NCBI GenBank assembly: GCA_029582155.1
Contig: CM055895.1
Coordinates: 10,702,544 to 10,766,543, forward strand
Length of the DNA stretch: 64,000 nt
Direction: 5' to 3'
Source: Panopea generosa
Lineage: Eukaryota > Mollusca > Bivalvia > Adapedonta > Hiatellidae
The notes beneath the pieces are model-generated. The model worked only from the letters and a program-made list of their open reading frames with translations. It did no database searches and had not been told where the DNA came from. Both the position numbers and the translations under genes were made by a program. Shown in pieces: positions 9,038 to 52,043 of the stretch; the stretch's first letter is position 1; each line of letters opens with the position of its first letter.

Positions 9038-9994
9038 TCAATGTATAGTTTCTGATGTAATAACTGACAGTGATGTATTAGGTCGACTGTCCTCACGTCG
9101 ATCTCCTGTAGTTCTACCGCTGTATCCTTTAAATCTCAGAATAATTTTAAAAGCTGTTTGAAAGCCTTTGTTTCTGTACCCGTATATCATCCAGTTTATT
9201 GCAGAATTGAAAAGTCCCGGAATCAATGCGTATCTTCTTATGTATTGTGTATAGGACGTCTCATGGAAAGTTATAACAACACCAACACAAATGTACGGTA
9301 ACCAACAAAGTACAAACATCCCAAGTACTATTACCATTGTCGTCAGCTGGTGTAAGTCCGTCTTTGCCTTTGTGTGTATCGTTAGATCTCCTCCGAGGCG
9401 TGTTGTCTTCGCCTGCCTCAAAGCCTTTCTCATAACAACGGCATACAAGACAAAATTCGCAGCAAGACCGAATATAAGTTGCCAGTTACACAAATTTTTA
9501 TATTCTGGTTTCAGAAGAGTGTCACTGACACATTCGGAGTTGTTTGCATCATATTCATTCCATCCGTATATAGGTATCATTCCAGTAACAGCTATAAACA
9601 TCCATCCGAATCCGATCATAAATATGAGTCTATATTTTGTAAAGTGTGCTCTCGCATGAAGTGGAAACATGATGGCCGCAAACCTCTCGATCGATATCAG
9701 CAACAGGGAGTAGCAAGAACATCCTAAACACGTAACAAACAGCGTTAACCGACCCAAACAAACATATTTGTGAGAGTAGAGTTTACCAAAAGTAGCAACC
9801 AAGTCATATGGTATTAAAACTAATCCAACTAATAGATCGGCCACTGCAAGGTTTCCAATTAGAATGTGCATACTGGTTCTTAGTTTCTTAAATTTTCTAA
9901 TGCTTATGAGAATTAGCACATTTCCAAACACTATCGGAATAATTATTATTATGTAAAATGTGTGCAAAATGTAATCGTAAACTTCGTCAACCAT
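9038..9994 (-). CDS. Class A (rhodopsin-type) GPCR, single exon, orphan
   Basis: A 318-residue seven-transmembrane receptor on one exon, starting at a true ATG (9994..9992). N25 is in TM1 (FGN), D53 in TM2 (LAVADLL), and C79 lies before TM3. TM3 ends SIERF, so E103-R104 replaces DRY. W131 is in TM4, CWLPY in TM6 at 230-234, and TM7 ends NSAINWMIYGYRN. The usual NPxxY Pro is Trp (W268). The second extracellular loop has the sequon NNS (N151) and C155, the probable disulfide partner of C79. The N-terminus is very short and has no sequon. The YGWN motif after TM4 and the overall compactness recall adenosine and aminergic receptors, but the ligand cannot be told. It should act at the plasma membrane through G proteins. 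Its paralogues are at 12163 and 17171. Confidence 0.95.
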   Translation of the reverse strand: MVDEVYDYILHTFYIIIIIPIVFGNVLILISIRKFKKLRTSMHILIGNLAVADLLVGLVLIPYDLVATFGKLYSHKYVCLGRLTLFVTCLGCSCYSLLLISIERFAAIMFPLHARAHFTKYRLIFMIGFGWMFIAVTGMIPIYGWNEYDANNSECVSDTLLKPEYKNLCNWQLIFGLAANFVLYAVVMRKALRQAKTTRLGGDLTIHTKAKTDLHQLTTMVIVLGMFVLCWLPYICVGVVITFHETSYTQYIRRYALIPGLFNSAINWMIYGYRNKGFQTAFKIILRFKGYSGRTTGDRREDSRPNTSLSVITSETIH

Positions 9995-12162
9995 GGTGTG
10001 CCTAAACCAGTGTTCTGTCTAATAGCAAAATATATCCTGATGTATTGTTCCTAGACAAAATATCTACCTATTCATCATATATACACTAAGTTTTGAAGCC
10101 AGCTATCAGAATGTAATCAAACATTTAAAGAACAACCCCCTTGGCCACACATACTTCGCGCTAGTCCATCACATTAGTAATGTGTTGATTTGAAAAAACA
10201 AACCTTTGAATGTCACTATTTACACTTGGTTGTGAGTGTTTGTTTAATCTGAGAAAATGAATATTTGTTAACTAGAGTGGTGTTAAGCCAGATATGTTCA
10301 CTAATGATGCGTGTTCTGAAGATCTTTTTTTTTTGTTGCAATAATTGCATTTGTAATTGAAATATCGCATGAAAAACGGACGCCGGAAATTCATATGTGG
10401 TTAATGGATAGAAAACATTAGTGTTGAAGAGGTTAAATGCGTTTTCTTTCAAACAACATACTGAATGGGTGGCGCTTCCGCAAACCATATTTAGTTTGTT
10501 TTAATAGCAGAATAAAATCTTTGTTATTCAATTACATGATGTTCAAACTGAAAGAGAGAACATTTTAATGTATTTTATTTAAATGATTTAAAAGCAATGT
10601 GAAACGCAATTAATCTAAACATAATAATTATAAGTTTACCGCTGGTTTCAGTTCGGTTTCACAAGCTTTTAAAATATAGCATTTTGAAATAGGAAAACAT
10701 AATGACTGAAATTTTAAAACAACAGTCTATGAATCTTTTAATTGTTGTTATATATTTTCTCGTAGGCGGAGATCCTTTAACGCTTCCATAATAATGAATC
10801 GTTAACAATATACTTTGATACAAACAGTATATGCAGTGTTTAATAACCGCAAATCTAAGAGCACCATCCAATGAAATAAAGGAAATGTCTGAGAGGTGTT
10901 AGAAAATGTGTTTAATGGAACGTCGACGAAAGTTTAGTTAGTATTGTTTGACCGTAATTAAATTTAAGTTACTTATTCAAGTTTAAACTAGTTTAAAATG
11001 TAAATGATGAATAAACCAATTGTTTTTGGAGGTTAACCTTCAGGTTGATTACGTAATGCTATTAGTTTGTTAGTTATTTAATATTAAACAATCTGCTGTT
11101 TTATTTGCTTATTGACTAATACTGGTTAATAGTATTACGAACTGTAGATAAGTCATTTCATAATGATTATCAGAAGTATGTATCGCTAATGGCAACCAAA
11201 TAATGTCAGGGGTTATTTGTAAATTTGGGGCTTCGACCGTGAATACCCATCGAAAAATTGAAAAAGCATTTATGGTTTATTTTATTTTATTAAATAATTC
11301 TCTTGTGTTCTTGATACAGTTATTAATATAAATCAAATAAAACTAGATATAATATTATTTATATGGCATTATGTAAGTATTACTAGAATGTGTTTCGACC
11401 ATTCAGCATTTCAACACTCTAGATTAAATAAATCGCACCATATTAACTGTAAAAAGAAAAGAGAGAAACGTTTAACAAAATCACGAGTACGGAGACGTCG
11501 CGCATGGCAATGGTACTTATATTAAAACGATTATCCGGAACATATAAAACTGTCTCAAAATACTTGAACATTAATTATACTTAAAAAATATTAAACCTTT
11601 TTAGTTGACGGATACATCCTGTTGACATGATCTGTATATTTTAATTTGACAGTAAGACACATTTAACGTCATTTTCCCCATGTCCCGGCGTAGTATTTAC
11701 GTCAGGTCCAGGCCTAAAATGTTATGTTTAAAAAAACGTCAGTTCTATTCACGGGAGAAATTGACATAATTTACGGTAATAGACGTTGTTTTTATTACAA
11801 CAAACTTAACGGCCATTACACAACACGCAATTCATTACGCCCATGCTTAATATCCCAGACGTCTCGTAAATAAAGTCATACTGAACCGTTAAAATGAAGA
11901 ATAGCGGTTTGTATTGCATTAAAACTATGCATGCATATATTCATTTTTACGATATGGTACATAATGATTTTTTTCTTATGGCGGTTATAAGATATTGCAT
12001 TTTTCCAATAGAAAAAAGATGTTGTCCAGCAACGTTATTAAAAAGAGATAACTGAAACGTTTTTGATAGATTTAATTATTTTAAAAAAAAACAATATCAT
12101 CTAAATTCTAAAATCATATCATGTACGTATGTCTCTATATATGTCCTGACTCACAGAGCCAA
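9995..12162. other. Spacer between GPCR paralogues
   Basis: AT-rich. Two minus-strand open frames (near 10216-10488 and 10659-10871) show no domain and have the composition of chance ORFs. The promoter of the first GPCR should lie just above 9994, but I see no clear core element. Confidence 0.4.
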
Positions 12163-13110
12163 TCATGAGCTCCGCCTTCTGTATATACTTGTAATAGACA
12201 TTGAAATGTTACTCGTACTATGGAGGTTCTCTCTCGGAGACTTGACACCTAATATCCTCTTAAATGCCGACTTAAATCCCTGGTTTCTGTAACCGTATAT
12301 CAACCAGTTGGCTGAAGAGTTGAACAGTCCAGGAATTAGCGTACAACGTCTTATAAACTGCGTGTATGCCGTCTCGTGAAACGTTATTATAACACTGATG
12401 ACGACATAAGGAGACCAGCACAACGCAAATAATCCAAGAACAATAACCATTGTTGTCATATGTTGTAGATCTCTCTGAGTCCGGTTGTTATGTATTGTTC
12501 CGTCTCCATCCACACGGGTACATTTCGCCTTCTTCAGTGCAATTTTCATGACTACAGTATACAAAATGAAACTGACAACAAGTGTTACTATGAGTTCCCA
12601 GTTGATTAATGTTTTATAAGCATGTGGATAAAGCGTGTCACTGATGCATTCCGTGTTGTTAGTACCATACATGTTCCAACCGTATATCGGCAGTGTCGCG
12701 TTGACAAAGGCGAACATCCACCCGATGGTAATCATACAATACATCTTATGCTTTGTAAAGTGCTTTTTTAAATGAAGCGGATAAACAATTGCTGCAAACC
12801 GTTCAATTGAGATCAAAAGCAAACAAATACACGAGCTTCCCAGGCTTATTATGAACATAGACAGTTTTATCAAGCACACATACTTTATATCATTGTAATC
12901 ACCTATCGTTGCCACAAGATCGTACGGTATCAAAATTGCGCCTATCATGAGATCGGCCGCTGCTAAATTTCCAATTAGAATGTGAATACTAGAACGGAGT
13001 CGTTTAAACTTCGCAATACTCACTAAAATAAGTCCGTTTCCAAATATGATGGGTGCAGCAACGACGATGTACAATGCATACCACATATAGTCATAAAACG
13101 TGTCACTCAT
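12163..13110 (-). CDS. Class A GPCR, single exon, paralogue 2
   Basis: A 315-residue receptor starting at ATG 13110..13108. It aligns with the 9038..9994 product along its whole length. Landmarks: N25 (FGN), D53 (LAAADLM), C79 (KYVCL), SIERF at the end of TM3, W131, the sequon NNT in the second extracellular loop next to EC(I)SDTL, CWSPY in TM6, and NSSANWLIYGYRN in TM7. Trp again replaces the NPxxY Pro. The cytoplasmic tail is short and rich in Ser and Arg. It has the same orientation as the first paralogue, about 2.2 kb away, consistent with tandem duplication. The ligand is unknown. Confidence 0.95.
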   Translation of the reverse strand: MSDTFYDYMWYALYIVVAAPIIFGNGLILVSIAKFKRLRSSIHILIGNLAAADLMIGAILIPYDLVATIGDYNDIKYVCLIKLSMFIISLGSSCICLLLISIERFAAIVYPLHLKKHFTKHKMYCMITIGWMFAFVNATLPIYGWNMYGTNNTECISDTLYPHAYKTLINWELIVTLVVSFILYTVVMKIALKKAKCTRVDGDGTIHNNRTQRDLQHMTTMVIVLGLFALCWSPYVVISVIITFHETAYTQFIRRCTLIPGLFNSSANWLIYGYRNQGFKSAFKRILGVKSPRENLHSTSNISMSITSIYRRRSS

Positions 13111-16030
13111 TTCTTTTTTTTAATATTTGCTGTGCACTAATTCATGAATCTACCACGCGAAATTGGAAGTATATTCAATTGCATGGAATCATTCTTCATA
13201 ACAATCAGGATGTTTGCTTTCCATCGAAAATAAATATCACGAGAACTCATTCCAATTAAACGAGTTAATTTTTCATTAGGAATAATTTTAATGACACATT
13301 TGATGCATTACATAGTCAGGCAAATTCAATAATTTGCTTCGTTACGTGCATATTTAATCAATTTAATGCTATATTTCACCTTGACATCGTCCAATTGGTA
13401 ACAGCTATCAATTAATCAGTATCTCATATGATTTTGATAAATGTTCTTTTAAAAACAACTATCAACGATTTAGTGCACTTCCAGGCATGTAAATAAAAAA
13501 ACAGAAAATAGAAGATATTTTGCAATTAATGCAATCACGTTATTCCGATAAAACTTCTATTTCTAATCAGATTTTTAATTAAAATATAGATATGTTATAT
13601 ATAACCATAATACCTTTGATAAGTTTAAAAAAACAACAAGTAGATCCATCTGTGTACTGTAATCATCGTGTAATGTTAAGTTTTCCATCATAGAAGCATT
13701 AATTAATTCTATTTTTATTTTTAATTTCTTTAACCTTTAATTTTTCGAAATTTCATATTCCTTTTAAAATATTAACTATTTCATTTATCATAGATAGAAG
13801 TTGAGTCCATTTCGCTCAACGTTTTATTATATACTGAAAATGGAGTTTATTTCATTAGAGAATTTACTTGAAGCATAACCTTCTAACCAGTAAATGTTTT
13901 TTCCTTTCCATTTAACCATGTGACCAACTCATTATAAAACTCTAAACATTAACTACATTAAGTATCAGAAGTGTCATTAAACTTGAGAATTATCTCCAAA
14001 CATAAAAGCAAATATCATACATATCTTTCCATCATAGCAATATCGTATAATTTGATTTCTCTCGGGAACAGTTTTTCATATACTAATGAATATTAACCAA
14101 TCCATTACATGCGTTTTATTTCTGCGCCGTCAGACTAAATTCATTAAGAAGTATTGGACCAATATATATAATGGATGTTAATTAAAGATTTTAAAAGATA
14201 ATATGGGCTAAAACTCTCGAAGATTATTCAGGAATATCCTACTAAAGTACATACAATAAAGGAAGTATGTGAGATCGAATTGTTTGAAATAGCGATAGCA
14301 ATGGTTTCGGCAATACTTAAAGTTGTAAGTATAAAAGACGCGTCATCGTAAAATATAATATGATTATAAATAATATGATTATAACTTAGATACATGCACA
14401 TGTATGATTTATTTAATCATAATTTTCTAGATGGTTTTGTTCATACAAAATTATTGTTACTTAAGCTCAAAAAGAAAATCTGTTACAAATAGTACCTATT
14501 TCCATTTAAAAATCATTCAGGGACAAAGATGTGGCAAAACATTGTATAAGATTACTACCTCTGGTTTTGCCTTTAAAATATATACTTCAAAATAAAAAAA
14601 AATGCACACAGCGATTTGTTAAGCGTTCGGTAAATATCCTGTTAAATGATCTGTACTAGCTTGTATTATGGCCATTTTCCATCTTCATAGTTTGTATTAT
14701 TTATATCCCTTGTTAGTTTAAGAAAATCCAGCATAATTATTTAGTCCATTTCATTTTTACAAAACATATTTTAATTCTATAAATCTTTTTTTCTTTTGTT
14801 GCGGAACAAGACATGACAAATTGTATCATGCCACACATATATACACATTGCAAGCATACAAGGAATATTGAAATAAATAAGGCAAGGAGTCTGTCTGGTC
14901 ATAGATGTTCTTTACATATTAGGGACGGCGGCCATCCCCTTTAAACGATGAATTATAGCATATCCCGATGGCTTAGTTATATTTTATTGACAATATATGC
15001 GTGTAGTAAAAGATTACAGACATACATTATCATTCATATAAAAATGCAAGAATACGTTTTAGATAAAAAAAGAAAGAGTTTTAAATTTCAAATTATTCAA
15101 ATAAAAAAATATATATAATGAACAATATACTTAGAAAAAATGTATTATCAAGTCTTAAATTTAAGCCCAATAGCTCCATTCAAACATTACGCATGGCGCA
15201 TGCTGAATGATTTTATAAAACTAAAATAAATATTACGAAATATGTACTTAATATTTATTAGTCATTACAACGTTTTGTTTGGTAATTCTGCTAAAAGCAT
15301 GTAATAATTAACTATTAATATATATTATCCACTTCAATCGTGTGTTGACTGCCGTGGATATTTAAGAGTGATACGTGAACTATGCTAAAACAATTTCAGT
15401 ATGTATTTAAGATCTGAATAAATACGCTTTTACGACATTTTGGTGGAAACTAACGTATCCAGAGTATTAACTGAGTGTTTAGTTTGCAACTATGGTATCT
15501 CGATTTATCCGGAAGTAGGGTAGCATGACGTAATGTAAACATTTAAATGTACAGTGATTCTTCGATCCACAGAACCACATTAACGAATATATTTCATTTG
15601 AACACTATTCAAATTGTATATTTAACATGTTACATGTATTTAATTTATAAATCATACTATAAGCTATTACTTTTCCGCAACTTTTTATGCTAAAACAAAT
15701 ATTCAAATCTCAAATGTAGCTTACCTCCACACTTGTGTCTGTTTTTCTCAGTCACGTGTTTGCTCGGTATTGGTGTCACATCTCGCGCATGTTGATTCTC
15801 CGGATGCAGTTAAATGGAGCAATTGAGTAATTTACGACATTGACGCGGCGTGATATCATTTATAAACGATCTCAGCTGAACGTATAAACACTATTGTATT
15901 AAATCTGGAAATTACCTCTTGGCGAATGTATTGCTGTTAAATGGAAATCTACGTTTAATAATAAGATCACGTACCATCGATATTGGAAATATTTGTTTTT
16001 CGAAATTAAAATGTCGATTGTTTATATTTC
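13111..16030. other. Very AT-rich spacer, no gene recognised
   Basis: Nearly 3 kb without a supported coding region or a recognisable mobile element. The stretch above 13110 should hold the promoter of GPCR paralogue 2. Confidence 0.4.
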
Positions 16031-16680: not shown

Positions 16681-17170
16681 GACACTAAATCTCGTGTCTT
16701 ACAAGTCAATAAGCTTCGATTTACATTTCACGATATGATATGCTATACGAACATATATATAGCTTAGTAATACACATAATCAGTCCCGGGATGCGTTAGC
16801 GAGTGTTTAGGTAGACATTGTGAATGTCACTTTTAAGTAGGGTTAACGGTATGTTAAACGTGATACCATTGCCTATATACAACCTTGGACTTTTCTACTT
16901 ATTAGAGTGTACTTGAAAGCACAATAAGAACGTTAATTGATTTGGCGACTTAAGTATGTACATTGTGTATGAATAATGATATGATAAATACCCACAGAAA
17001 ATGGGTACTTATGAAATGATAGCCTAATGTAAAGATAAATTAATGATAGGCATGGTAAGAATGATTCTGTGCCGTTATAGGCAAAAAGAAATTAAAATTA
17101 TTTGGAAGATATGTAACCAAGAAGTTTAAACTTTAAATGCAGCTACACATGTAAAAGTGGTTTGATCGTC
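16681..17170. other. 5' flank of GPCR paralogue 3
   Basis: Upstream region of the plus-strand GPCR. No clear TATA box or initiator can be singled out in this AT-rich sequence. Confidence 0.3.
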
Positions 17171-18121
17171 ATGGAGCTCGCAAATACTGACGTATATATG
17201 ACGATATGGCATGCTCTTTACGTCATTATCACTATCCCTACCATATTTGGAAACGGACTTATCATCGCCAGTATCGTCAAGTTTAAAAGTCTCAGGTGCA
17301 GTATGCACATCCTTATTGGAAACTTAGCTGTTGCAGACATTATTGTAGGTGCTGTTTTGATACCGTTTGATATAGCATCCGACATTGGGAAGTTCAATGC
17401 CAAAAAGTATGTGTGCTTGGTTAAATTGTCATTCTTTGTCATGTGTCTTGGGTGTTCTTGTTACTCCTTATTGCTGATTTCCATTGAAAGATTCATCGCC
17501 ATAATAACACCTTTCCGAAGCCGAGAATATTTCACAAAATTTAAACTTCTACTGATGATAACCTTTGGATGGATCATTACGTTCGTTAACGGAACGCTTC
17601 CCATATACGGTTGGAATAGATACAATGTCAATGACACAGAGTGCGTCAGTGACACCCTCTACGCACCCGGGTACAAATTCATGCTCAACATAGAAATTGT
17701 TGCGGCGCTTTTGTTGAATTTTGTTCTTTACACTATTGTCATGAATATCGCTATAAAGAAAGCGAAATCAACTCGTCTTGGCAATGAAATCGTCATACAT
17801 ACAAGAACGGTGAAAGATCTGCAACAATTGAAGACAATGGTGGTTGTGTTAGGGTTGTTTGTATTATGTTGGTTTCCGTACATGTGCAGTGCTGTAATTG
17901 TTTTAGTGTACGAGACGAGCTACACACAGTTTATAAGAAGATGCACGCTAATACCTGGAATGTTCAATTCTGCAATAAACTGGATTATTTATGGGTATAG
18001 GAACACTAAATTCCGGAAAGCTTTCAAGACCCTTCTGAGATTCAAATCGCCAGGCAATCATCCACATACAGTACGAAATAACAACATGGGGGTGTCCGTT
18101 ACCCAAATGGGGAGAATTTAA
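17171..18121 (+). CDS. Class A GPCR, single exon, paralogue 3
   Basis: A 316-residue receptor. The open frame extends back to a TTG at 17162, but the first ATG is at 17171 (MELANTDVYM) and is chosen as the start. It has the same architecture as the two minus-strand paralogues: FGN in TM1, LAVADII in TM2, KYVCL before TM3, SIERF at the cytoplasmic end of TM3, YGWN after TM4, the sequon NDT with EC(V)SDTL in the second extracellular loop, CWFPY in TM6, and NSAINWIIYGYRN in TM7 with the Pro-to-Trp change. It is inverted relative to the other two, so the cluster needs at least one inversion or an inverted duplication. Ligand and coupling are unknown. Confidence 0.95.
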   Translation: MELANTDVYMTIWHALYVIITIPTIFGNGLIIASIVKFKSLRCSMHILIGNLAVADIIVGAVLIPFDIASDIGKFNAKKYVCLVKLSFFVMCLGCSCYSLLLISIERFIAIITPFRSREYFTKFKLLLMITFGWIITFVNGTLPIYGWNRYNVNDTECVSDTLYAPGYKFMLNIEIVAALLLNFVLYTIVMNIAIKKAKSTRLGNEIVIHTRTVKDLQQLKTMVVVLGLFVLCWFPYMCSAVIVLVYETSYTQFIRRCTLIPGMFNSAINWIIYGYRNTKFRKAFKTLLRFKSPGNHPHTVRNNNMGVSVTQMGRI

Positions 18122-21155: not shown

Positions 21156-21459
21156 CCCTTTACTTCATATAGACGCCTTTGGACACCTAATATAGACACC
21201 TTTCGACACCTCTAATATAGACGCCCTTGGACACCTAATATAGATGCCTTTTAACACCTCTAATATAGACACCCTTGGACACCAAAAATAGAATGCTTTT
21301 GAATTAATGGGTGAATTATGTTTATATTAATTAAGAGAGTGGAAAACAGTGCAGGAAGTGTTCAGATTGCTCGTTACAATCAATCTGAACTCTTCCTGCA
21401 CTGTTTTCAAAGGCCTTCTGTGATTGGTGCGGGAAAATGTGTATCTATTGAGTAAAGGG
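21156..21459 (-). mobile_element. piggyBac-type MITE, copy 1 (internally expanded)
   Basis: Flanked by TTAA (21152..21155 and 21460..21463), with CCCTTTACTTCATA at one end and AGTAAAGGG at the other. It is inverted relative to the copies at 28451 and 31618 and about 84 bp longer, because a CTAATATAGACGCCYTTGGACAC-type segment is repeated about five times (21170-21290). The central inverted repeat (AACAGTGCAGGAAG ... CTTCCTGCACTGTT) is intact. A TTAA target site with CCC/GGG termini is typical of the piggyBac superfamily; no transposase is present. Confidence 0.88.
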
Positions 21460-41044: not shown

Positions 41045-44000
41045 ATGACAACATCGCAATACTTCTCAACAACACGACTAACCCGATCTAAACTGAATTC
41101 ATCGCAGATAGATCCAGCGTCAACGCGATCGACCAAATCTAAAGATGAGGTATCCCCTTCACTCCACTCTATATGATTTATTTTATGTAGCTAGCCGAAA
41201 GCTATAGAAACATAGGTCCTGTGCTTCACTTAACTGTTTTTAGCAGGGGCGGATCCAGTGTTTCAGATAGGATTTGGGGAATGTATTTATTTCTAGGTGG
41301 AAAAATGAAAAACAGATCTAAAGCAATCAACACTGTTATTGAGACATCAAACCAATAGATGTAATAACAGTTGGCACACTAAAATGTTGTTAAAGAGCTC
41401 CTCTTGGTATCCCCAAGGAATTTGTAGTTCATTGGTATTCCAGACACCTCTACCTCTGCTCCAAGTTTGGTGATGACTAGAAACAGACTGATTGCTCATT
41501 TTTCTTTTCAGTTATAGAAAATAGCGATAATACGTATGCACTCTCTACTATTTAATCATTAGCCTATTTAATTCAGGACTCTTGCTTGCTCGCACTTTCC
41601 AGAATGGGGTCGGGACCCCTGACTTTGGGAAAATAAGCTTATCTTTAAAGAAATTGGGAAAACTACATAGTATATTATGTTCCTTTAGTGTACGTAACAA
41701 TGCATGTGTAATGTACATCACATGTGATGGTCTTGTAGTAAACTGCATTAAAATCATAATATTAAAAAATATCCAAACTTTCCCCTAAAATATTTTGGCT
41801 TCTTTGATTTTGAAATTGGGAATTTTGTTGCTTTGGATTTGGGGAAAAAATAAACTATTTGCCATTGAGAATGGGGCAGAATATCGGCCCAAAAATTGGG
41901 CAAACAAGTACTCTGTAATTATATGTTCTCTATTAACTGTAGATGTAGAAGGGATGTCTGAGAAACATCCAATTAATAAATTTATTTAACGCCATTATAG
42001 ATTAATTGCTTGATTATCATCCAAATTATTTTTAAAAGGAAGTGAGGGGTTGGGGAGGATTTTTTTGTCATTTTTTCATTTTTAAAAAAGGTCGGGGGCA
42101 GCATGAAAAGTAGGAGGTGGGGATGATAATTTAGCAAATAATTTTTTATGGCCTTATGAAAGTACTGATGTTCAGTCATGATTACCTATTCATAGTTAAT
42201 TATTTTGGAATTATTATTTCATAATTGGCATATTTTGACTTCCTAAAGTGAATTCATAATAGATAGCATGTCACTTTCTCCTGATTAAATGAGGCATGGA
42301 ACTGTATGGACAGCTTTATTAATATTTGGGTATCTGCTTTGCTGTCAATAAATGTTGTCTCGGAGACGCAAATTAAAAAATTCTAAAGGGCTTTTTTGGA
42401 GACGAGTTATAATTATGTCACTTGTATTTCCCAACAGGTGAGTGGAATTTTCGATGTCTGCTTAATGAAATTATTATAAAGGGACATTACAACATCAGCT
42501 ACTTATGCATTTTGTCTTCATTCATCTGATGCGATTGAAACAAATCTTGACTCTTCATTATCCGCAGCAGGTGACTGGTGTTTCAGTGGTTAAAATACTT
42601 GCTCCAAGGCCCAGAGGCTTCCAATTTGATTTTCAATGGGGTTAAATCCAGGAAGTTTTTAAATGTACGCTCACAGTACAGTATTTTATGCAAGGTGGTG
42701 TGAAAGTATACTATCCTTTGTAGACGATGTTGTTGTTGTTGTATGGTGCTTAGCGTCGCTTTCAAAAATTTTCAGTCATATTGCGATGGTGTCCACTTGA
42801 GACAGTATTCTGAGCGCTGTCACACTGGGGTGCCACAGTCATATGGTATGATACCCCACCCAGTCACATTATACTGACATCAGGCCGATTAGACCTAGAA
42901 CTTTCTTCAAAATACTGAGTGTCAAGCAAGGAAGCTTCTAGTACCACTTTTAGAGTCTTTGGTATGACCTGGCCAGGGATCGAACCCATGACCTTCCGTA
43001 TGCGAGGCGGAAGCTCTACCACTAGACCACGCTGCGGTCTTGTAGAAGATGTAAAGCAGTAGGTCCGCTGGAAGTGTGCTGGGAGAACCATTCCAAAGAT
43101 CTTGCTAAACTTCTATCTCAAACAGTGATCCAAAGTACCCATAATCATTCTTGGGGACAATGCTTCCTAGTTCTTCAAAAGGGGTATGGAAGTAATGGAA
43201 AGAAAATGTGTTCTTTATAAATATCTGACCAATACAATTCTAAACACTTTTATAGAGATAAAATTATCATTTCAGTCATTTCAAACTGAACTTGCAAGGT
43301 GGTGTCATTACTGATATTATTGTAAACCTTATTAATTTTCTTCAAATTGTCAAATTTCATTGCAGTTCAATGAGACAAAAACAGATATCACTGGGTTCAA
43401 ACGACCTGAAATTCAAAGGAATTACATGAATGAACATTCTGATGGAGAATCACTAGCAACAGGACAAAGAAGGAAAAGAAAGCACATTAGAATTAAAGTA
43501 GAAAATGATTTATGCAAAGAGGAACATCCTTCAAAACCACTTAAAAACATTGCAGTGAAATCAGAATATTTGGATACGAAAACAATTAAAACTGAACCAC
43601 TTGACTCTGTTGGAGATAATTCAGTATGTGAGAAAGTGTTTGAATCAAAGAACAATGTTAAAAAAGAAACTTGGGAGCCACCCTTGTGGAGACATGTGAT
43701 GGAGAACTTATACGAGATGAGGAAAGCAAGAGATGCTCCGGTTGACACGATGGGATGTGATGTAATCAGTGATGCAAAGGCTGAACCACAGGTTTGTTTA
43801 CTTCTTCTTTTGTTCATCATGACAAAATAATCTTAGGCACAGACTGAGGCACACTAACCTCTTACCACTTAAGTTGTGGGTTCAAGCCAAGCTCGGTCCA
43901 AACACTGTGTGAAATTTACCATTTACATGACATTGTGACAGAACAGTGTTTCTACTCGGTTCCATTTTGATATTTTTCTCCAGGAATAACACTAGATTCC

Positions 44001-47000
44001 ATATAATACATATCCTGTATTGTGTTGAAAATGGCGTAAAACCCCATTAAAAAAAATTTTTTTAACATTAAATCTAATTCTAAAATAAATGCTACTGGTA
44101 AAACTAAATATTAAATAGAATAACATCTCACTGCATTATTCATTTTCAAATTAATTATTGCTCTTTAGGCCAAACTTTAAAAAAATATTTGTTTGCTGTG
44201 CTCCAACCCAGTATTTTTCATGTGGGTAGGTAGATAGCTAATTTTTTTCTCTCCAAATTTTGATTTTTGCATAGTCATTTTAAAGAAAAATAGACATAAA
44301 TCATAAAACATGCTTTGAATGTTAATAAAAAAAATTTGGGTACCGGTAGCTGCAGTTTTGAGTGAATAGGTAGGAGCATGGCAAACAATATATTTTTTAA
44401 GGATGGCCTCATTGTCTGTCTACCATGTACAATCAATTGGATTAACTGCGACATATCTTGAGTATTTTTATTAGAAGGCAATTCAGAATTGCAGAGAAAG
44501 AAATTGATTGAATGCACATCTGTATATACCATAGAACTACATTTATAGATATAAATATACATATTTCTTCTGCCAGGTGTATAGATACCAAGTGTTGTTG
44601 TCCCTGATGTTGTCCAGCCAGACAAAGGATCAGATCACCTCCGCAGCCGTGTCACGACTGAGACAACACGGTTGTAATGTAGACAACATTCTTGCCACCT
44701 CAGATAAAGTCCTAGGAGATCTCATATACCCTGTTGGCTTTTGGAAGGTAATGGAAATTATATTCATATCAATGACAATTAAAATCATTTGTTGAAAATA
44801 TTCATTGAATATAAATCATCAAACTTCAAAATCTAGGTTTCGAAGTTTGTACAATTAAAAATATGAAATACTAGTACATGTAGTTCATTTGTTATAGGGA
44901 CCTCCATGGCCAAGTGGTCTTAGGCTCCATCTCATGATCACTTACCTCTCACTGCTAAGGTCGTAGGTTCGAGTCGCATTCGTTCCAAAAACTTTATATG
45001 AGAAAGTTTCCAGTTACTTGCGGAAGGACGGTGGTTCTACTCAGTCTGACTCAGTCTGAGGTCTTCCTCCACCAGTAAAACTGGATATGCCATATATAAC
45101 CTGAAATGTGTTGTAAATGGCATTAAACCCCATTCATTTGTTAAAAAATGCAACTTCAATTAAAATAAGTCAAAGTTACTATCAAAATTAGCAAGACTTA
45201 AAAATCGAAGTCTATGCAGTTGCTTATAATTTGTAGCTGGTCCTAAGGAACCCGTATACTATTTGACATGTACATTGTATCTGTGACCATTAATCCATTG
45301 ACTTAAGATGCTAAAACTATAACAGTGTATTAATGTTCCAATTGGCCATCGATTATAACCAAAATTACAGACTGATCTGAAAGCAATATAAAGAAGCAAT
45401 TAATAATAATCTTGTAAAAGTATTCCCATAATTATCATCTCCTGGATTACTGGTGATGATTTTGCCATAATTATCATATAAATAATGGTAAATATTTTGC
45501 CATAATTATCATAACACCTTGATTACTAGCAATGATTTTGTCATTGTTTTTATCATATATCCAGGATTACTAGTAATGATTTTCCGATAATTATCATATC
45601 CCAAGAAGATCTGGTAATGATTTGCTATGATTATCATATCACCATGATTACTATCAATGATTTTGCCGTAGTTATCATATCTCCATGAATACTGATAATG
45701 ATTTGCCATAATTTTCATACCACCTTGATTACTAGCAATGATTTTGTCATTGTTACCATATCTCAAGGATTACCAGTGATGATTTTTCTATAATTACATC
45801 AGCAGGGTTACTAGCAATGATGTTATCATAATTATCATATCAGCAGGAAAACTGGTAATAATTTGCCATGATTATCATATCACATTGATTACTTGCAATG
45901 ATTTTTCCATTATTATCATGTCACCAACTGATGATTTTGTCATTGATATCATATCACCAGGATTACTGGTAATGATCTCCCCATGATTATTGTAATGTTT
46001 TCCCCAAACTTATATAACACTGCAAGTGTATGAAATGTGTTAACATTTTACTAATTCAGTTTATGTGCATTTTGTAGAAAAAGATTGACTACATCAAAAG
46101 AACAAGTGAAATATTGAGAAGTCGGTATGATGCGGACATTCCAGCCACGGTGGAGGAGCTATGTAAACTGCCAGGGGTTGGGCCCAAGATGGCCCACCTT
46201 GTCATGAAATGTGCCTGGAATCAGGTGACAGGTTAGTCATTTTTCTGTTTTGAACAGGATCATAAATCTCAGGTGAGTATAATATATATGCAGGGCTTTT
46301 CATCAGAAAATTGGGAAGAGGCCTTGGCCTCTCAAATTGGGAAATTCATGCGCGATAATTGCCCATTTTGGGAAAAAGACATTTTATTGAAAGATGGACA
46401 GTGTATAAATTTGAACAGTATTTTCAACTAAGTAATTCCAGTCTATGGGATGGATGACTTCCAAGCAACGCACCAGTTGAAACAAAAGCTGTTTCAGTAG
46501 ATACACCTTCTCCGAAAAGCTCACAATATTTACAAATACAACCTTTCCTTTTTGGGCTGAAGTATAGCCATGTGTACCTGTTTTCATACTGAAGGAGACA
46601 TTGTTTCCTGCCATCAAAATTTGAAATTTCTGGTTCACATTGAATGGTAGAATCTGTTACAACAGGAAGAGAGTTCACTTTAACGGGCTGTTCTTCAGTG
46701 TTGGATATATTACTGCAGCTTGGGACAGTGTCATTGTCAGTGCCAATGGCCTCCTCGGTAGCTGTTGATTGATTTACGATACTTTCAGCCTCAAGTTTTT
46801 TTTACACCACAATCAAACAACATTTTTTGACTTTCCTTTGAAAGAAACTGATGTTTAATGAACTTACTATAATATTTCTTATTGGATGACATTTTTAATC
46901 AGAGAAAATCAACCGGAGGTAAACATCGTTAAAAAAAACAGAATAATTTACCTCCTTGTAGTCTAGATCATTGAGGACGCTTGCTTTCTAAAAGGTTGTC

Positions 47001-50000
47001 TTTGCAGAGTTATGAGTCGAATGTGTTAGAGAGGCGTTGCCGATGATCTAGACTGCTTCCCTTGAGAAAAGCATAGACTAAATTCCAAACCACAGAATAT
47101 TACGGATTAGACTGGTTACACGTAACCTGCATGTACGATTGCCGCGCTATAGATGCTTTTAGGCAAATAGATACCAGACCAGCGCTTTTGGCGGATATGT
47201 TGAAATGTAAACAAAACGTAGAGATTTTGAGAAATCTTAACTGGCTTATTTGGGAAGTTTCTCTGCCACAGTTGGGAAAAAATAATGCATTTTTCAATTG
47301 GGAAGTGGCTGAATATCGGTCTCTGTTATATAAGGATGAAAAGCCCTGATATGGCAATACTTTGCCTTTGTGACCAGAAGTTAATTTTGTTCTCTAGAAA
47401 AAAACGGGGTCGAAAACCAGGCTGACTCATGAAGCAGAATCTACATTTATTATATACCTATTAATACAACCTGGATTCAACAGGATTTCTACAGTGTGGT
47501 AAAGTGTTCCATATAGATCACCTACTCAAGTTTTTAGGATTACCCTCTGTCCCACGTCTGGCCAGTGTCCATCCAGCCGTCCGGACAAATTACTAAAAAA
47601 GTATCCAAGCTTAGTTTTTCAAACTTTGCATGTGGATAGAGGAAAATAGGGAGATAATGTGGGTCATTTTGTTTTTCCAGTCTGACAAAAGTTGGGGTTG
47701 CTATGGCACTAAATAAGTGAAATTACAGATACAACCTTGATCCTGTGATAACAGAAAAAGTGCGGATAGAGAGAAATATCATACAGATCCTTTAGTTATT
47801 ATTTCAGCAGATAAAAACTTGTGATTGGTATGGCAACAACCACATTTTGCTTATAGCACTGCAAATCTTATGTCACCATTTATAGGAAAAAGTCCTCAAA
47901 AACACTAATTTTTTGTACGTTAACAAATTCCTACCTGTGAACTGGTAGGGGACTTATGTATTGCTTGCAATACTCTGCTGTCTTGTTTCTTATGATGTTG
48001 ATGTTGTTTGTTGATTGTGTATCTCAATGACTTGGTACTAAAAACAAAGAGGTATGTAATAAAATGATACTAAACGTTTACCAGCATCATCTCATGAATA
48101 TATCAAATCAGCTAATTCCCCTCAAGACTTTGCCTCTCCTGTGACAAATTCACTAGAAATGATACGAGTAACCAAGTTTGTATAGTAACAATCTTTATGT
48201 ATACTTCTTGATATACGACTAATATACGATTAATACTGATCTTATTAATCTGGAAAGTATGCTTTTTGTTAAGTAGGCAGCAGCTGTAAAGTAAAATGTA
48301 GGTCCAGAACGTCTGACATCACTATTTGTTAAGTAGGCAGCAGCTGTAAAGTAAAATGTAGGTCCAGAACGTCACACATCACTATTTGTTAGGTAGGCAG
48401 CAGCTGTAAAGTAAAATGTAGATCCAGAATGTGTCACATCACTATTTGTTAGGTAGGCAGCAGCTGTAAAGTAAAATGTAGATCCAGAACGTCTCACATC
48501 ACTATTTGTTAGGTAGGCAGCAGCTGTAAAGTAAAATGTAGGTCCAGAACGTCTGACATCACTATTTGTTAAGTAGGCAGCAGCTGTAAAGTAAAATGTA
48601 GGTCCAGAACATCACACATCACTATTTGTTAGGTAGGCAGCAGCTGTAAAGTAAAATGTAGGTCCAGAATGTGTCACATCACTATTTGTTAAGTAGGCAG
48701 CAGCTGTAAAGTAAAATGTAGGTCCAGAATGTGTCACATCACTATTTGTTAGGTAGGCAGCAGCTGTAAAGTAAAATGTAGGTCCAGAATGTCTCACATC
48801 ACTATTTGTTAGGTAGGCAGCAGCTGTAAAGTAAAATGTAGGTCCAGAACGTCTGACACCACTATTTGTAAGGTAGGCAGCAGCTGTAAAGTAAAATGTA
48901 GGTCCAGAACGTCTCACATCACTATTTGTTAAGTAGGCAGCAGCTGTAAAGTAAAATGTAGGTCCAGAACGTCTCACATCACTATTTGTTAGGTAGGCAG
49001 CAGCTGTAAAGTAAAATATAGGTCCAGAACGTCACACACCACTATTTGTTAAGTAGTCAGCAGCTGTAAAGTAAAATGTAGGTCTAGAACGTCTGACATC
49101 ACTATTTGTTAAGTAGGCAGCAGCTGTAAACTGTCACTATTAGACCGTGTGTGCTCTCTAGCACCTGCATTTTTCATTTGATCATCACTACACTTGCACA
49201 GTAGTTATATAACCATTATCTTGGAAAAGTTCTTGAAATGGCCAAATCGGATTACTGTTGTCAGAGCTCTGGCCTTTGAAACATTAAAAAATGCAATGTT
49301 TGACCTTGTGTGCACTCTGTCACCTGCAAAAATTGTTGTCTTTGGCATTGTCTCCTCTACCACAGGAGAGTGATTTAGGGCTATTATGGCCCTGTTGTTT
49401 TTTTAATTCAATGGTTTTGTGATACCTATCAATTTCCAGTGTAATAAAATGTGAAGAAAAAGAGAACTAAAGTTCTACTTCTACATCCTTTATCATTTTG
49501 TAGGTCTGGAGTATTCAAGGGAGATACTAGTGGTGTGAGTCCAAAAGTTCTTTGTTTAAAAGGTACCTGAGTGAGGCATTGTTCTCTTGTGAATGAAATT
49601 TTCATAACCTCTGCTTTAAAAAAATGTTAAAAGCATAAATTTAAAGATAATTATCAAACAGTAATGTTATAGAGTAGTATACATGTACATATATCTCCAG
49701 GTATAGGGGTGGATACTCATGTACACAGAATATCTAACCGGCTAGGATGGGTAAAAAAGATGACAAAGCAACCGGAGGACACGAGAAAGGCTCTTCAAGA
49801 TTGGTTGCCAAGGTAACAATTTACAATAACATTTTTTTTTTCTCAGGATATTCAAATTGTCAACTCTTTTCAAATGAATATTAACATTCCTACACTTGTA
49901 TTTGAGCAGTTATAACAGAAATGTATTTGAAATTTAAAAAGGGCTATTTGATACAAAAATGTATAAATCATATTATCAAACCAATTTACATCGTAAGTTA

Positions 50001-51864
50001 CATCAAAGGTTATGATAGTTTGCTGATATTAACTTTCATCTTGTTTGGTTTCAGGGAACACTGGGCTGATATTAGCCATCTTGTTGTTGGGTTTCAGGGA
50101 ACGCTGAACTGATATAAACCATCTTACTTGTTGGGTTTCAGGGAACACTGGACTGATATTAAACATCATCTTGTTTCGTTTCAGGGAACACTGGACTGAT
50201 ATTAGCCATCTTTTTGTTGGGTTTCAGGGAACACTGGACTGATACTAACCATCTTCTTTTTGGGTTTCAGGGAACACTGGACTGATATTAACCATCTTGT
50301 TGTTGGGTTTCAGGGAACACTTGACTGATATTAACCATCTTCTTGTTTGGTTTCATGGAACACTTGACTGATACTAACCATCTTCTTGTTGGGTTTCAGG
50401 GAACACTGGACTGATATTAAACATCATCTTGTTTCGTTTCAGGGAACACTCGATTGATATTAACCACCTACTTGTTGGGTTCCAGGGAACACTGGACTGA
50501 TATTAGCCATCTTCTTGTTTGGTTTCATGGAACACTTGACTGATACTAACCATCTTCTTGTTTGGTTTCATGGAACACTTGACTGATACTAACCATCTTC
50601 TTGTTTGGTTTCAGGGAACATTGGACTGATAATAGCCATCTTCTTGATGGGTTTCAGGGAACACTGGACTGATATCAGCCATCTTGTGTTGGGTTTCAAG
50701 GAACACTGGACTGATATTTACCATCTTGTTGTTGGGTTTCAGGGAACACTAGACTGATATCAGCCATCTTGTGTTGGGGTTCGGGAAACACAAGACTGAT
50801 ATCAGCCATCTTGTGTTGGGTTTCAGGAAACACTGGACTGATATTAACCATCTACTTGTTGGGTTTCAGGGAACACTGGACTGATATTAACCATCTTGTT
50901 GGGTTTCAGGGAACACATGACTGATATTAGCCATCTTCATGTAGGGTTTCAGGGAACACTGGACTGATATTAACCATCTACTTGTTGGGTTTCAGGGAAC
51001 ACTGGACTGATATTAACCATCTTGTTGGGTTTCAGGGAACACTGGATTGATATTAGCCATCTTCATGTAGGGTTTCAGGGAACACTGGACTGATATTAAC
51101 CATCTACTTGTTGGGTTTCAGGGAACACTGGACTGATATTAACCATCTTGTTGGGTTTCAGGGAACACTGGACTGATATTAGCCATCTTCATGTAGGGTT
51201 TCAGGGAACACTGGACTGATATTAACCATCTACTTGTTGGGTTTCAGGGAACACTGGACTGATATTAACCATCTTGTTGGGTTTCAGGGAACACTTGACT
51301 GATATTAACCATCTTCATGTAGGGTTTCAGGGAACACTGGACTGATATTAACCATCTACTTGTTGGGTTTCAGGGAACACTGGGCTGATACTAGCCATCT
51401 TGTTGGGTTTCAGGGAACACTGGGCTGATATTAGCCATCTTGTTGGGTTTCAGGGAACACTGGACTGATATAAACCATCTTCTTGTTTGGTTTCAGGTAA
51501 CACTGGACTGATATTAGCCATCTTCTTGTTGGGTTTCAGGGAACACTTGACTGATACTAACCATCTTCTTGTTGGGTTTCAGGGAACACCGGACTGATAT
51601 TAACCACCTTCGTGTTTGGTTTCAAGGAACACTGGACTGATATTAACCATCTTCTTGTTTGGTTTCAGGGAACACTGGACTGATATTAACCATCTTCTAG
51701 TTGGGTTTGGACAACAAACATGTTTACCTGTTAACCCGAAATGCTCCCAGTGTCTCAATAAAAAGGTTTGCCCATTTGGAAAACTACAAATGAAATATGG
51801 CAGCCCCAAAAAGATGAAAATGGAAAACAAAAAGGATGTAAAGAAGGAGATCAAAGCAGAGTAA
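41045..51864 (+). CDS. NTHL1: Endonuclease III-like DNA glycosylase / AP lyase NTHL1, complete, six exons
   Basis: Exons: 41045..41149, 43366..43791, 44577..44747, 46078..46231, 49701..49812 and 51669..51864 (TAA). All junctions are GT-AG with consistent phases (1164 nt, 387 aa). The enzyme removes oxidised pyrimidines and nicks AP sites in base excision repair, in nucleus and mitochondria. Visible: an Arg/Ser/Thr-rich start ([16 protein letters not shown]) that could target mitochondria; a Lys-rich, disordered-looking region (about 36-140) that makes it longer than the ~305-residue human protein; [17 protein letters not shown]; helix-hairpin-helix [11 protein letters not shown] with catalytic K271; [10 protein letters not shown] with catalytic D290; and Fe-S ligands C341-X6-C348-X2-C351-X5-C357. 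The C-terminal tail is Lys-rich. In-frame Met codons exist upstream of 41045, so the start is the least certain point. Introns 3, 4 and 5 carry tandem arrays; the one in intron 5 copies the last acceptor. Confidence 0.95.
41235..41930. other. NTHL1 intron 1, decayed DNA-transposon-like sequence
   Basis: Contains AGCAGGGGCGGATCCAGTG at about 41242, a motif often seen at ends of decayed DNA transposons. Further on are several ATTGGG/TTTGGGGAAAA motifs and GAATATCGGCCC, which resemble the subterminal parts of the hAT element at 46291. No termini could be paired. Confidence 0.3.
41989..42154. mobile_element. Palindromic MITE (family M2), copy 1 (NTHL1 intron 1)
   Basis: The left end has GCCATTATAGATTAATTGCT then GATTATCATCC. 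The right end has GGATGATAATTTAGCAAATA then TTATGGCCT, i.e. imperfect ~35-bp terminal inverted repeats. TA flanks both ends (41987..41988 and 42155..42156), as in Tc1/mariner-type elements. The interior is G/T-rich with GGGTTGGGGAGGA and GTCGGGGGCAGCATGAAAA. Confidence 0.75.
42727..43040 (-). mobile_element. tRNA-derived SINE, family E (NTHL1 intron 1)
   Basis: Minus-strand head GACCGCAGCGTGGTCTAGTG, anticodon-arm-like TTCCGCCTCGCATACGGAA and B box GGGTTCGATCCC give a well preserved tRNA-like shape. A ~240-bp body follows, ending in a (CAA)n tail (the TTG run at 42729..42742). Single copy in the window. The head could be called as a tRNA, but the body and tail argue for a SINE. Confidence 0.82.
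43835..44056 (+). mobile_element. Degraded family A SINE (NTHL1 intron 2)
   Basis: B-box remnant GTGGGTTCAAGCC, then GTTTCTACTCGG and the terminal GTGTTGAAAATGGCGTAAAA with an A-rich tail. It starts about 45 bp after the exon 2 donor. Confidence 0.65.
44897..45142 (+). mobile_element. tRNA-derived SINE, family A, copy 5, best preserved (NTHL1 intron 3)
   Basis: Plus-strand copy that shows the family clearly. Head GGCCAAGTGGTCTTAGGCTC, B box GTAGGTTCGAGTCGC, core CCAGTTACTTGCGGAAGGAC, GGTGGTTCTACTCAGTCTGA, GGTCTTCCTCCACCAGTAAA, 3' end GTGTTGTAAATGGCATTAAA. About 245 bp. Confidence 0.92.
45425..45985. repeat. Degenerate 40-43-bp tandem array, about 13 copies (NTHL1 intron 3)
   Basis: Units contain GATTACTAGCAATGATTTTG followed by CCATAATTATCATATCACC, recurring about every 41-43 bp with substitutions and indels. 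It ends about 90 bp before the exon 4 acceptor at 46078. Confidence 0.88.
46291..47348 (-). mobile_element. hAT-like DNA transposon remnant (NTHL1 intron 4)
   Basis: Perfect 14-bp terminal inverted repeats CAGGGCTTTTCATC (46291..46304) and GATGAAAAGCCCTG (47335..47348) bound 1058 bp. ATATG is repeated directly at both outer ends (46286..46290 and 47349..47353), shorter than the 8 bp typical of hAT. Ends contain several ATTGGGAA motifs. It holds only an N-terminal transposase fragment, so it is an internally deleted, non-autonomous copy. Confidence 0.8.
46424..46892 (-). pseudogene. Transposase N-terminus (TTF/BED-like zinc finger) of the hAT remnant, frameshifted
   Basis: Starts at ATG 46892..46890 ([15 protein letters not shown]) and changes frame at a homopolymer of about eight T near 46797-46804. 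It then runs open to 46424, with [20 protein letters not shown] followed by CELFG. The W-x-x-F-SP-x-KKG-x-x-C-x-x-C-x-LFG pattern is typical of the TTF-type zinc finger at the start of hAT/ZMYM-like proteins. The RNase H-like catalytic core and dimerisation domain are missing. Confidence 0.7.
47349..48264. other. NTHL1 intron 4 sequence
   Basis: Contains a possible decayed R3-like stretch (GTCCATCCAGCCGTCCGGAC near 47566). Nothing else is recognised. Confidence 0.35.
48265..49130. repeat. Exact 60-bp tandem array, 14.4 copies (NTHL1 intron 4)
   Basis: Period exactly 60 bp without indels. Unit landmarks: AAGTAGGCAGCAGCTGTAAA, GTAAAATGTAGGTCCAGAAC, then GTCTGACATCACTATTTGTT. Variation is concentrated in the GTC(T/A)(G/C)ACATC segment. 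Because 60 is a multiple of three, a 121-codon frame stays open on the minus strand; this follows from the period and is not evidence of coding. Confidence 0.98.
49131..49700. other. NTHL1 intron 4, distal part
   Basis: Nothing recognised. It ends with the exon 5 acceptor atctccag at 49700. Confidence 0.35.
50043..51712 (+). repeat. Splice-acceptor minisatellite: ~39 units of the NTHL1 last-exon boundary
   Basis: Units of 40 or 43 bp read TTGTTGGGTTTCAG / GGAACACTGGACTGATATTA / ACCATCTTC. That is the 3' splice site plus the first 11-12 codons of exon 6 ([11 protein letters not shown]). The last unit is the genuine exon start (acceptor 51667..51668, exon from 51669). It differs at CTAGTTGGGTTTGGACAA, where the gene continues into the Fe-S ligands. 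About 32 of 38 upstream units keep a CAG acceptor; others read CATGG, CAAGG or CGGGA. Between about 50850 and 51360 the units are organised in a 126-bp trimer. Confidence 0.97.
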
Positions 51865-52037: not shown

Positions 52038-52043
52038 AATAAA
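52038..52043 (+). promoter_or_regulatory. Candidate NTHL1 poly(A) signal AATAAA
   Basis: First canonical hexamer downstream of the NTHL1 stop (51862..51864), about 175 bp into the presumed 3' UTR. Another AATAAA-containing stretch is at about 52210. Neither is proven. Confidence 0.45.

Follow-up and report, generated by a model that had tools for sequence, protein, structure and literature searches.

The window analysed here, a stretch of 64,000 nucleotides (nt) from the bivalve Panopea generosa (GenBank assembly GCA_029582155.1, contig CM055895.1, positions 10,702,544 to 10,766,543 of the forward strand), sits on a 100.3-Mb contig in an assembly of 1.474 Gb and 39 contigs. It carries the gene NTHL1, in which the border between the last intron and the last coding exon has been multiplied into a minisatellite of the type named a 'mirage' in amphioxus: 38 copies of the acceptor and exon start stand in tandem upstream of the authentic border, which comes last (Table 1).

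The NTHL1 gene and its multiplied acceptor

The five coding exons (A to E) join in frame when the last acceptor of the array, copy 39, is used. Residues 73-305 of the resulting protein model align with human NTHL1 (7rds_A) at E 4.6e-95; the alignment is colinear, free of gaps at the D/E junction, and extends beyond the four cysteines C-X6-C-X2-C-X5-C. The Pfam scan of the model returned HhH-GPD (PF00730, E 4.5e-20) and HHH (PF00633, E 4.9e-11) and reported no separate iron-sulfur (Fe-S) model. An earlier sequence-only reading of this DNA had named the gene NTHL1, as the homology bears out, and had called the exon behind the array 'exon 6': the analysis found five coding exons and no proof of a further first exon, so that 'last coding exon' is the safe name.

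The array forms a single entry in the output of Tandem Repeats Finder (50023-51708, period 43, 39.7 copies). Parsed unit by unit, it consists of 39 acceptor copies, the upstream ones (u1 to u38) and the real one, each laid out as GGTTTCAG/GGAACACTGGACTGATATTAAC..., where the slash marks the border between intron end and exon start. The parse and the reading frames agree with the earlier view that an intron/exon border has been multiplied with the real acceptor last, that some 38 decoys precede it, and that about 32 of these keep CAG: AG is intact in 32 of the 38 upstream units and has changed to AT in u8, u12 and u13, to AA in u16 and u38, and to GG in u18. Two details required adjustment. The proposed unit size of 40-43 bp holds for most units but not at its upper end, the parsed range being 40-44 nt (43 nt in 28 upstream units, 40 in six, 42 in three and 44 in one). 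The array does not start at 50043 as proposed, because a degenerate partial unit containing CTGATATTAAC stands before u1 and places the edge at about 50022.

The upstream units have a mean pairwise identity of 0.876, and given this value a chance arrangement is not at issue. From u19 to u31 the identity is 0.984 at lag 3 vs 0.893 at lag 1, the mark of a higher-order block. If u1 were used, the last intron would measure 242 nt, vs 1856 nt with the real acceptor (by subtraction from 49813). Tandem arrays are hard to assemble and this one is represented by one assembly; nevertheless, the differences between units, the ordered super-unit of 126 nt and the position inside a 100-Mb contig make it highly improbable that an assembly error enlarged the array.

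Table 1. Coordinates of the features discussed (window positions, unless a sampled piece is named; slashes mark exon-intron borders)
Feature	Position	Strand	Basis
NTHL1 exon A (5' end uncertain; protein model begun at MNEHSDG)	43366..43791	+	open frame, donor CAG/GTTTGT
NTHL1 exon B	44577..44747	+	frame, splice signals, colinear with 7rds
NTHL1 exon C (helix-hairpin-helix LPGVGPKMA)	46078..46231	+	frame, colinearity, Pfam HhH-GPD and HHH
NTHL1 exon D (donor AAG/GTAACA, GT at 49813)	49701..49812	+	frame, splice signals, colinearity
Mirage minisatellite (partial unit, 38 upstream acceptor and exon-start copies, authentic border last)	50022..51708	+	Tandem Repeats Finder, unit parse
u1, first upstream acceptor	50053..50054	+	unit parse
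Higher-order block u19-u31, super-unit of 126 nt (43+40+43)	50819..51365	+	lag-3 vs lag-1 identity
u35, TTTCAG/GTAACA, acceptor joined to a donor-like hexamer (possible recursive splice site)	51489..51531	+	unit parse
u38, closest upstream copy, AG lost (TTTCAA)	51618..51660	+	unit parse
Authentic acceptor AG of the last coding exon	51667..51668	+	sole choice of 39 keeping frame and homology
NTHL1 exon E, last coding exon (C-X6-C-X2-C-X5-C, stop TAA 51862-51864)	51669..51864	+	frame, 7rds alignment
Second AATAAA, inside coding sequence	51757-51762	+	motif
AATAAA, candidate poly(A) signal	52038..52043	+	motif; 8 matches vs 6.5 expected, no more than chance
Donor-side mirage, C-type lectin gene	L026:2089-3600 (L026 = C3:40000001-40010000)	-	unit homology to exon end

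Many of the copies look like complete 3' splice-site modules, because the exon codons supply a branch-like motif and a T-rich tract and the intron supplies CAG. The exon start reads ...GAT ATT AAC CAT CTT CTA GTT GGG TTT: the codons for D-I-N double as the branch-point-like GATATTAAC, and those for H-L-L-V-G-F form the T-rich tract. Of the 32 live (AG-bearing) upstream acceptors, 17 have TTAAC or CTAAC in the preceding 34 nt. The supposed branch A is a G in 13 of the 38 units; TGATA, which belongs to a different candidate branch site (CTGAT), does not vary between units. Together with the real site, the live acceptors number 33.

One unit, u35, has the sequence pattern of a recursive splice site, with the acceptor AG directly before a donor GT. 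Splicing to u35 would recreate GTAACA behind exon D, which would allow a further splice to an acceptor downstream, and its TTTCAG/GTAACAC does resemble the exon D donor GTAACAA. Recursion of this kind is nonetheless very unlikely: the pattern occurs in one unit of 38, TTAAC/CTAAC is absent before the u35 acceptor, and a single substitution accounts for the GT.

The upstream copies are not evolving like coding sequence, as their variation does not follow the codons: among the 38 units the variant cells at codon positions 1, 2 and 3 number 10, 35 and 17, and the distinct alleles 6, 9 and 7, with no third-position excess of variation. Nor does the G of AG stand out, since with two variant alleles (mean 0.84 over 43 columns) it is one of eight columns of the 43 that have two or more. 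The copies drift like non-coding DNA without visible constraint, and nothing firm points to selection on the units. AG has been lost in four of the seven upstream copies that share the real site's TTTGG tract (u1, u8, u12, u13, u14, u35 and u38) vs two of the 31 others, among which u4, u6 and u10 were counted (Fisher p 0.006, post hoc). When u8, u12 and u13 are treated as one event, the contrast becomes 2/5 vs 2/31 (p 0.084). Selection removing decoy AGs is not claimed, the contrast being post hoc and its p value 0.084 after related units are merged. Loss of the strongest rivals, the TTTGG copies, may still help the choice of the real acceptor.

Outside the array, the introns of the gene hold two other minisatellites, at 45423-45990 (41 nt x 14), which stops 88 nt short of the first base of exon C, and at 48265-49130 (60 nt x 14). 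Between exons C and D there is also an open frame of 125 residues with a C-x2-C stretch (46424-46801, minus strand), perhaps a transposon remnant; a Pfam scan of this frame gave no match.

Choice among 33 acceptors

Each of the 39 acceptor positions was joined in silico to exon D and the product translated. All 38 upstream choices, including the 32 with AG, run into a stop after 1-33 codons, no further on than the second unit behind the one chosen. The stop comes after 18 or 19 codons in 33 of them and after 1, 3, 3, 33 and 33 in the other five. Only copy 39 stays open to the stop at 51864 and includes the Fe-S cysteines. The sequence-only reading had anticipated this outcome, namely that the last copy alone reads into the Fe-S ligands, that a typical decoy product ends after about 19 codons, and that upstream use gives a truncated protein without these ligands.

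Its further expectation, that decoy transcripts undergo nonsense-mediated decay (NMD), is not supported. The premature stops would fall within the last coding exon, behind which no further junction is predicted, and the classical exon-junction rule of NMD does not mark mRNAs of this sort as targets; decay of the decoy products by this route was for that reason rejected as a prediction. A long 3' untranslated region can influence transcript fate in some animals. For the u1 product this region would span about 1.9 kb, vs about 0.2 kb normally (from the stops at 50112 and 51864 to AATAAA at 52038), and an effect of its length on decoy transcripts is possible. Some upstream use, with production of truncated protein, would be expected.

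This mirage minisatellite probably arose neutrally, as one product of the rampant formation of minisatellites, and the spliceosome would in most cases reach the last copy through the context of the terminal exon. A neutral origin is the most likely one. The end of the exon start and the intron end (GTTTGGTTTCAG) share GGTTT, and duplication through this identity could have created the 43-nt unit of exon start plus CAG, which unequal exchange would then have multiplied. A productive mRNA requires copy 39. This copy might be favoured by terminal-exon definition, in that genuine coding sequence and the gene's own 3' end come only after it, and the closest upstream rival, u38, would help by having no AG. 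Beyond the anatomy, frames, homology and lack of a detected second copy, which are observed, the terminal-exon step is a proposal for which the evidence is mixed and thin, and the idea that it favours copy 39, though still preferred, can be put forward only tentatively. In its favour, the array differs in composition from the unique part of exon E, both in purine share (0.48 vs 0.64) and in the density of GAR-type trimers (0.087 vs 0.169). Over 200 nt downstream, and over this span only, the GAR density of the real site (0.146) exceeds that of the copies (0.071-0.106).

Several results weigh against this reading. Over shorter downstream spans the GAR density of the real site falls within the range of the copies (0.069 vs 0.069-0.138 for the 38 copies within 60 nt; 0.076 vs 0.059-0.102 within 120 nt), the unique stretch of exon E has the same density as its shuffled versions (0.168, sd 0.028), and exon B (GAR 0.112, 50% purine) resembles the array. 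Three live copies, u1, u6 and u14, have the same pyrimidine count and branch motif as the real site. Predicted openness of the RNA places the real acceptor low among the 39 copies, with ranks of 31 and 33 for the hexamer and 36 and 38 for the AG; the six nucleotides before it rank 24 and 19. In toy models without preference, equal competition gives the real site 1/33 of transcripts (3.0%), and first-come-first-served choice (assumed elongation 25-50 nt/s, half-times 10-300 s) gives it 0 to 0.9%. A 32-fold preference is required for half of the transcripts to be productive.

RNA structure that hides the decoys was considered as an alternative route to the last copy and is unsupported: the real acceptor ranks near the bottom for openness, and three single stretches folded no better than their shuffles (z 0.60, -0.15 and -0.22).

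The same numbers would suit a gene in which upstream copies capture most transcripts, leaving an allele near null or hypomorphic: 32 of the 38 upstream sites have AG, 17 of those 32 have TTAAC/CTAAC, and the toy models without preference leave the real site at most 3%. Set against them is the condition of the gene itself. A protein search of the organism's own genome (E<=10) gave at least 11 matches, five of them the exons, another five units of the array and one a weak hit on C18 (E 3.9), and a DNA search with the 3' end gave at least 15 places, all within the array and exon E; the match counts are lower bounds. What these searches returned was the gene's own exons, array units and one weak C18 match, so that no NTHL1 gene other than this one was detected in the genome. 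A second copy was not detected in the protein and DNA searches, nor was a spliced retrocopy that would reveal the D/E junction. With coding exons that are intact and close to human NTHL1, and with no second copy detected, the gene looks maintained. This argues against capture by the upstream copies, as does the amphioxus precedent, where regular splicing is reported to be undisturbed (PMC3087553), and a near-null allele is therefore unlikely.

Mirages in other lineages and elsewhere in the genome

Amphioxus mirages are described as minisatellites at splice borders in which many copies, though not all, keep the splice signal; the cases are Adh3, the globins BflGb6 and BflGb9, PGBD5 and troponin C (PMC3087553, PMC3902484). 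Data on amphioxus Adh3 and reverse-transcription PCR of the globins suggest that mirages leave regular splicing undisturbed (PMC3087553). The NTHL1 array is likewise a tandem minisatellite whose unit covers the exon-intron border, copying exon sequence together with the splice signal, and many but not all of its copies retain that signal. It is of the same kind as the amphioxus mirages, in a different gene and with many more units than the globin cases: the acceptor-side mirage of BflGb6 has 6 and 3 units of 150-160 bp in two haplotypes (PMC3087553), whereas the NTHL1 array has 38 upstream copies in units of 40-44 nt. Unlike the amphioxus mirages as described, the NTHL1 unit contains a branch-like motif and a T-rich tract. 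The claim that no such case had been described in NTHL1 agrees with a literature search, in that no such array in NTHL1, or outside amphioxus, appeared in the titles and abstract openings of the matches listed (10 of 35 papers in the search naming NTHL1), but the kind itself had been published under the name of 'mirages'. The hosts in the published cases considered here are all cephalochordates. A search of the present genome for the green fluorescent protein (GFP) family, of which the amphioxus genome is said to encode 16 members (PMC2679011), gave no match above the cut-off of 22 bits (best 17.3 bits); it was run exon by exon with 14 prokaryotic genomes as controls, which leaves its sensitivity unproven. 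A COX1 search gave 0 matches at E<=0.001. The genome is also about three times the size of that of Branchiostoma.

Other systems share single features with the array. Intron gain by tandem genomic duplication (the idea of Rogers, cited in PMC3087553) also multiplies splice signals, but the NTHL1 array multiplies an existing acceptor and makes no new intron. In human segmental duplications, internal tandem repeats (minisatellites averaging four units of 30 bp) alter exon/intron structure, and some cryptic splice sites are activated (PMC2812944). These repeats have far fewer units and, in the passages used, are not presented as copies of an existing border. The variable number tandem repeat in intron 6 of human TERT resembles the NTHL1 array in being made of intronic 38-nt repeats that affect splicing, and repeat number is reported to control the outcome, with at least nine repeats needed (PMC3948165). 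The TERT repeat lies more than 1 kb from exon junctions, works by RNA pairing, and copies no splice site.

The sequence-only reading had suggested that the copy number of the NTHL1 array could tune NTHL1 output; as a regulatory rheostat it would set the productive fraction of NTHL1 mRNA and be under selection. Every one of the 38 upstream choices is unproductive, and the TERT report indicates that repeat number can matter for splicing. However, the NTHL1 units lack codon-like constraint and arrays are abundant in the same genome, which leaves the rheostat an improbable explanation next to a neutral by-product.

The abundance of arrays was gauged from twenty 10-kb pieces (L019-L038) taken at round coordinates on 14 contigs, 200,000 bases including 5,000 N. 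With arrays defined by a period of 20-200 and at least 4.5 copies, the sample holds 26 arrays that make up 23.9% of the 200 kb, with periods of 20-111 and up to 187 copies; the window has seven, covering 8.1%. At least one of the sampled arrays is a second mirage, and it shows that donor sides are affected too, because it copies an exon end together with its donor. The exon in question, on the minus strand of L026 from 3600 to 3377, encodes the beginning of a C-type lectin domain and ends in GATACT/GTAAGT. Its Pfam match to Lectin_C (E 4.7e-4, 21.3 bits) is under the cut-off of 22.6, and in PDB it finds 35 sequences at E<=0.01 (best 1.6e-7), the alignment reaching up to WIGLSD. The array contains six more copies of GATACT/GTAAGT, five of which share 45-47 of 58 positions with the authentic border and one 39 of 58, followed by 16 units that retain only the core GATAC(T/A)/GTAAA.

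Mirages thus account for at least one of the 26 sampled arrays (95% interval 0.1 to 20%). The lectin case was spotted by eye among 68 frames crossing the edges of the 26 arrays, ten of which were scanned with Pfam; 'one of 26' is a minimum because the other 58 frames were judged by eye only, and with so wide an interval and ten of 68 frames scanned, any genome-wide number is a guess. A match to zf_ULT1 in the edge frames is weak, below the cut-off, and was taken as chance.

Splice motifs inside an array were rejected as evidence for a mirage, as four or more GTAAGT or YYYYNCAG on a strand occur in six of the 26 arrays, the lectin mirage included; only homology of the unit to the flanking exon counts. 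The 44-nt array at L027:7168-8321, which has 22 acceptor-like sites on one strand and 23 on the other, is a useful negative control, no frame of at least 30 residues running past its edges. An array in L025 has 45 GTAAGT and no exon recognisable by eye. A test for branch motif, tract and AG together on consensus units was passed by 2 of 33 arrays (NTHL1 and L031).

Neighbouring features and biological meaning

Elsewhere in the window, three similar-looking intronless frames of rhodopsin-type G-protein-coupled receptors form one cluster, at 9038-10018 (-), 12163-13119 (-) and 17117-18121 (+), with Pfam 7tm_1 matches at E 4.4e-37, 1.3e-37 and 2.1e-39. A short element, ATATAGACGCCTTTGGACACC or its reverse complement, was seen by eye in tandem at two unrelated places, 21167-21292 and about L027:7050-7105.

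For annotation the NTHL1 array is a warning, since gene predictors may put the last exon at the wrong copy. For the study of splicing, 33 live and nearly identical acceptors with one productive outcome amount to a natural test of acceptor choice: with one gene offering all of them and only one being productive, one RNA experiment could separate what position, terminal-exon context and kinetics contribute. That so small a sample contained another mirage, on the donor side, suggests that the genome may have many more natural experiments of this type and that minisatellite growth gives rise to new splice sites. A wider generalisation is more doubtful, though worth stating: mirages would be no oddity of lancelets but would arise at many genes in this animal, on acceptor and donor sides alike, and the spliceosome would routinely find the true border, with context outside the motif deciding most.

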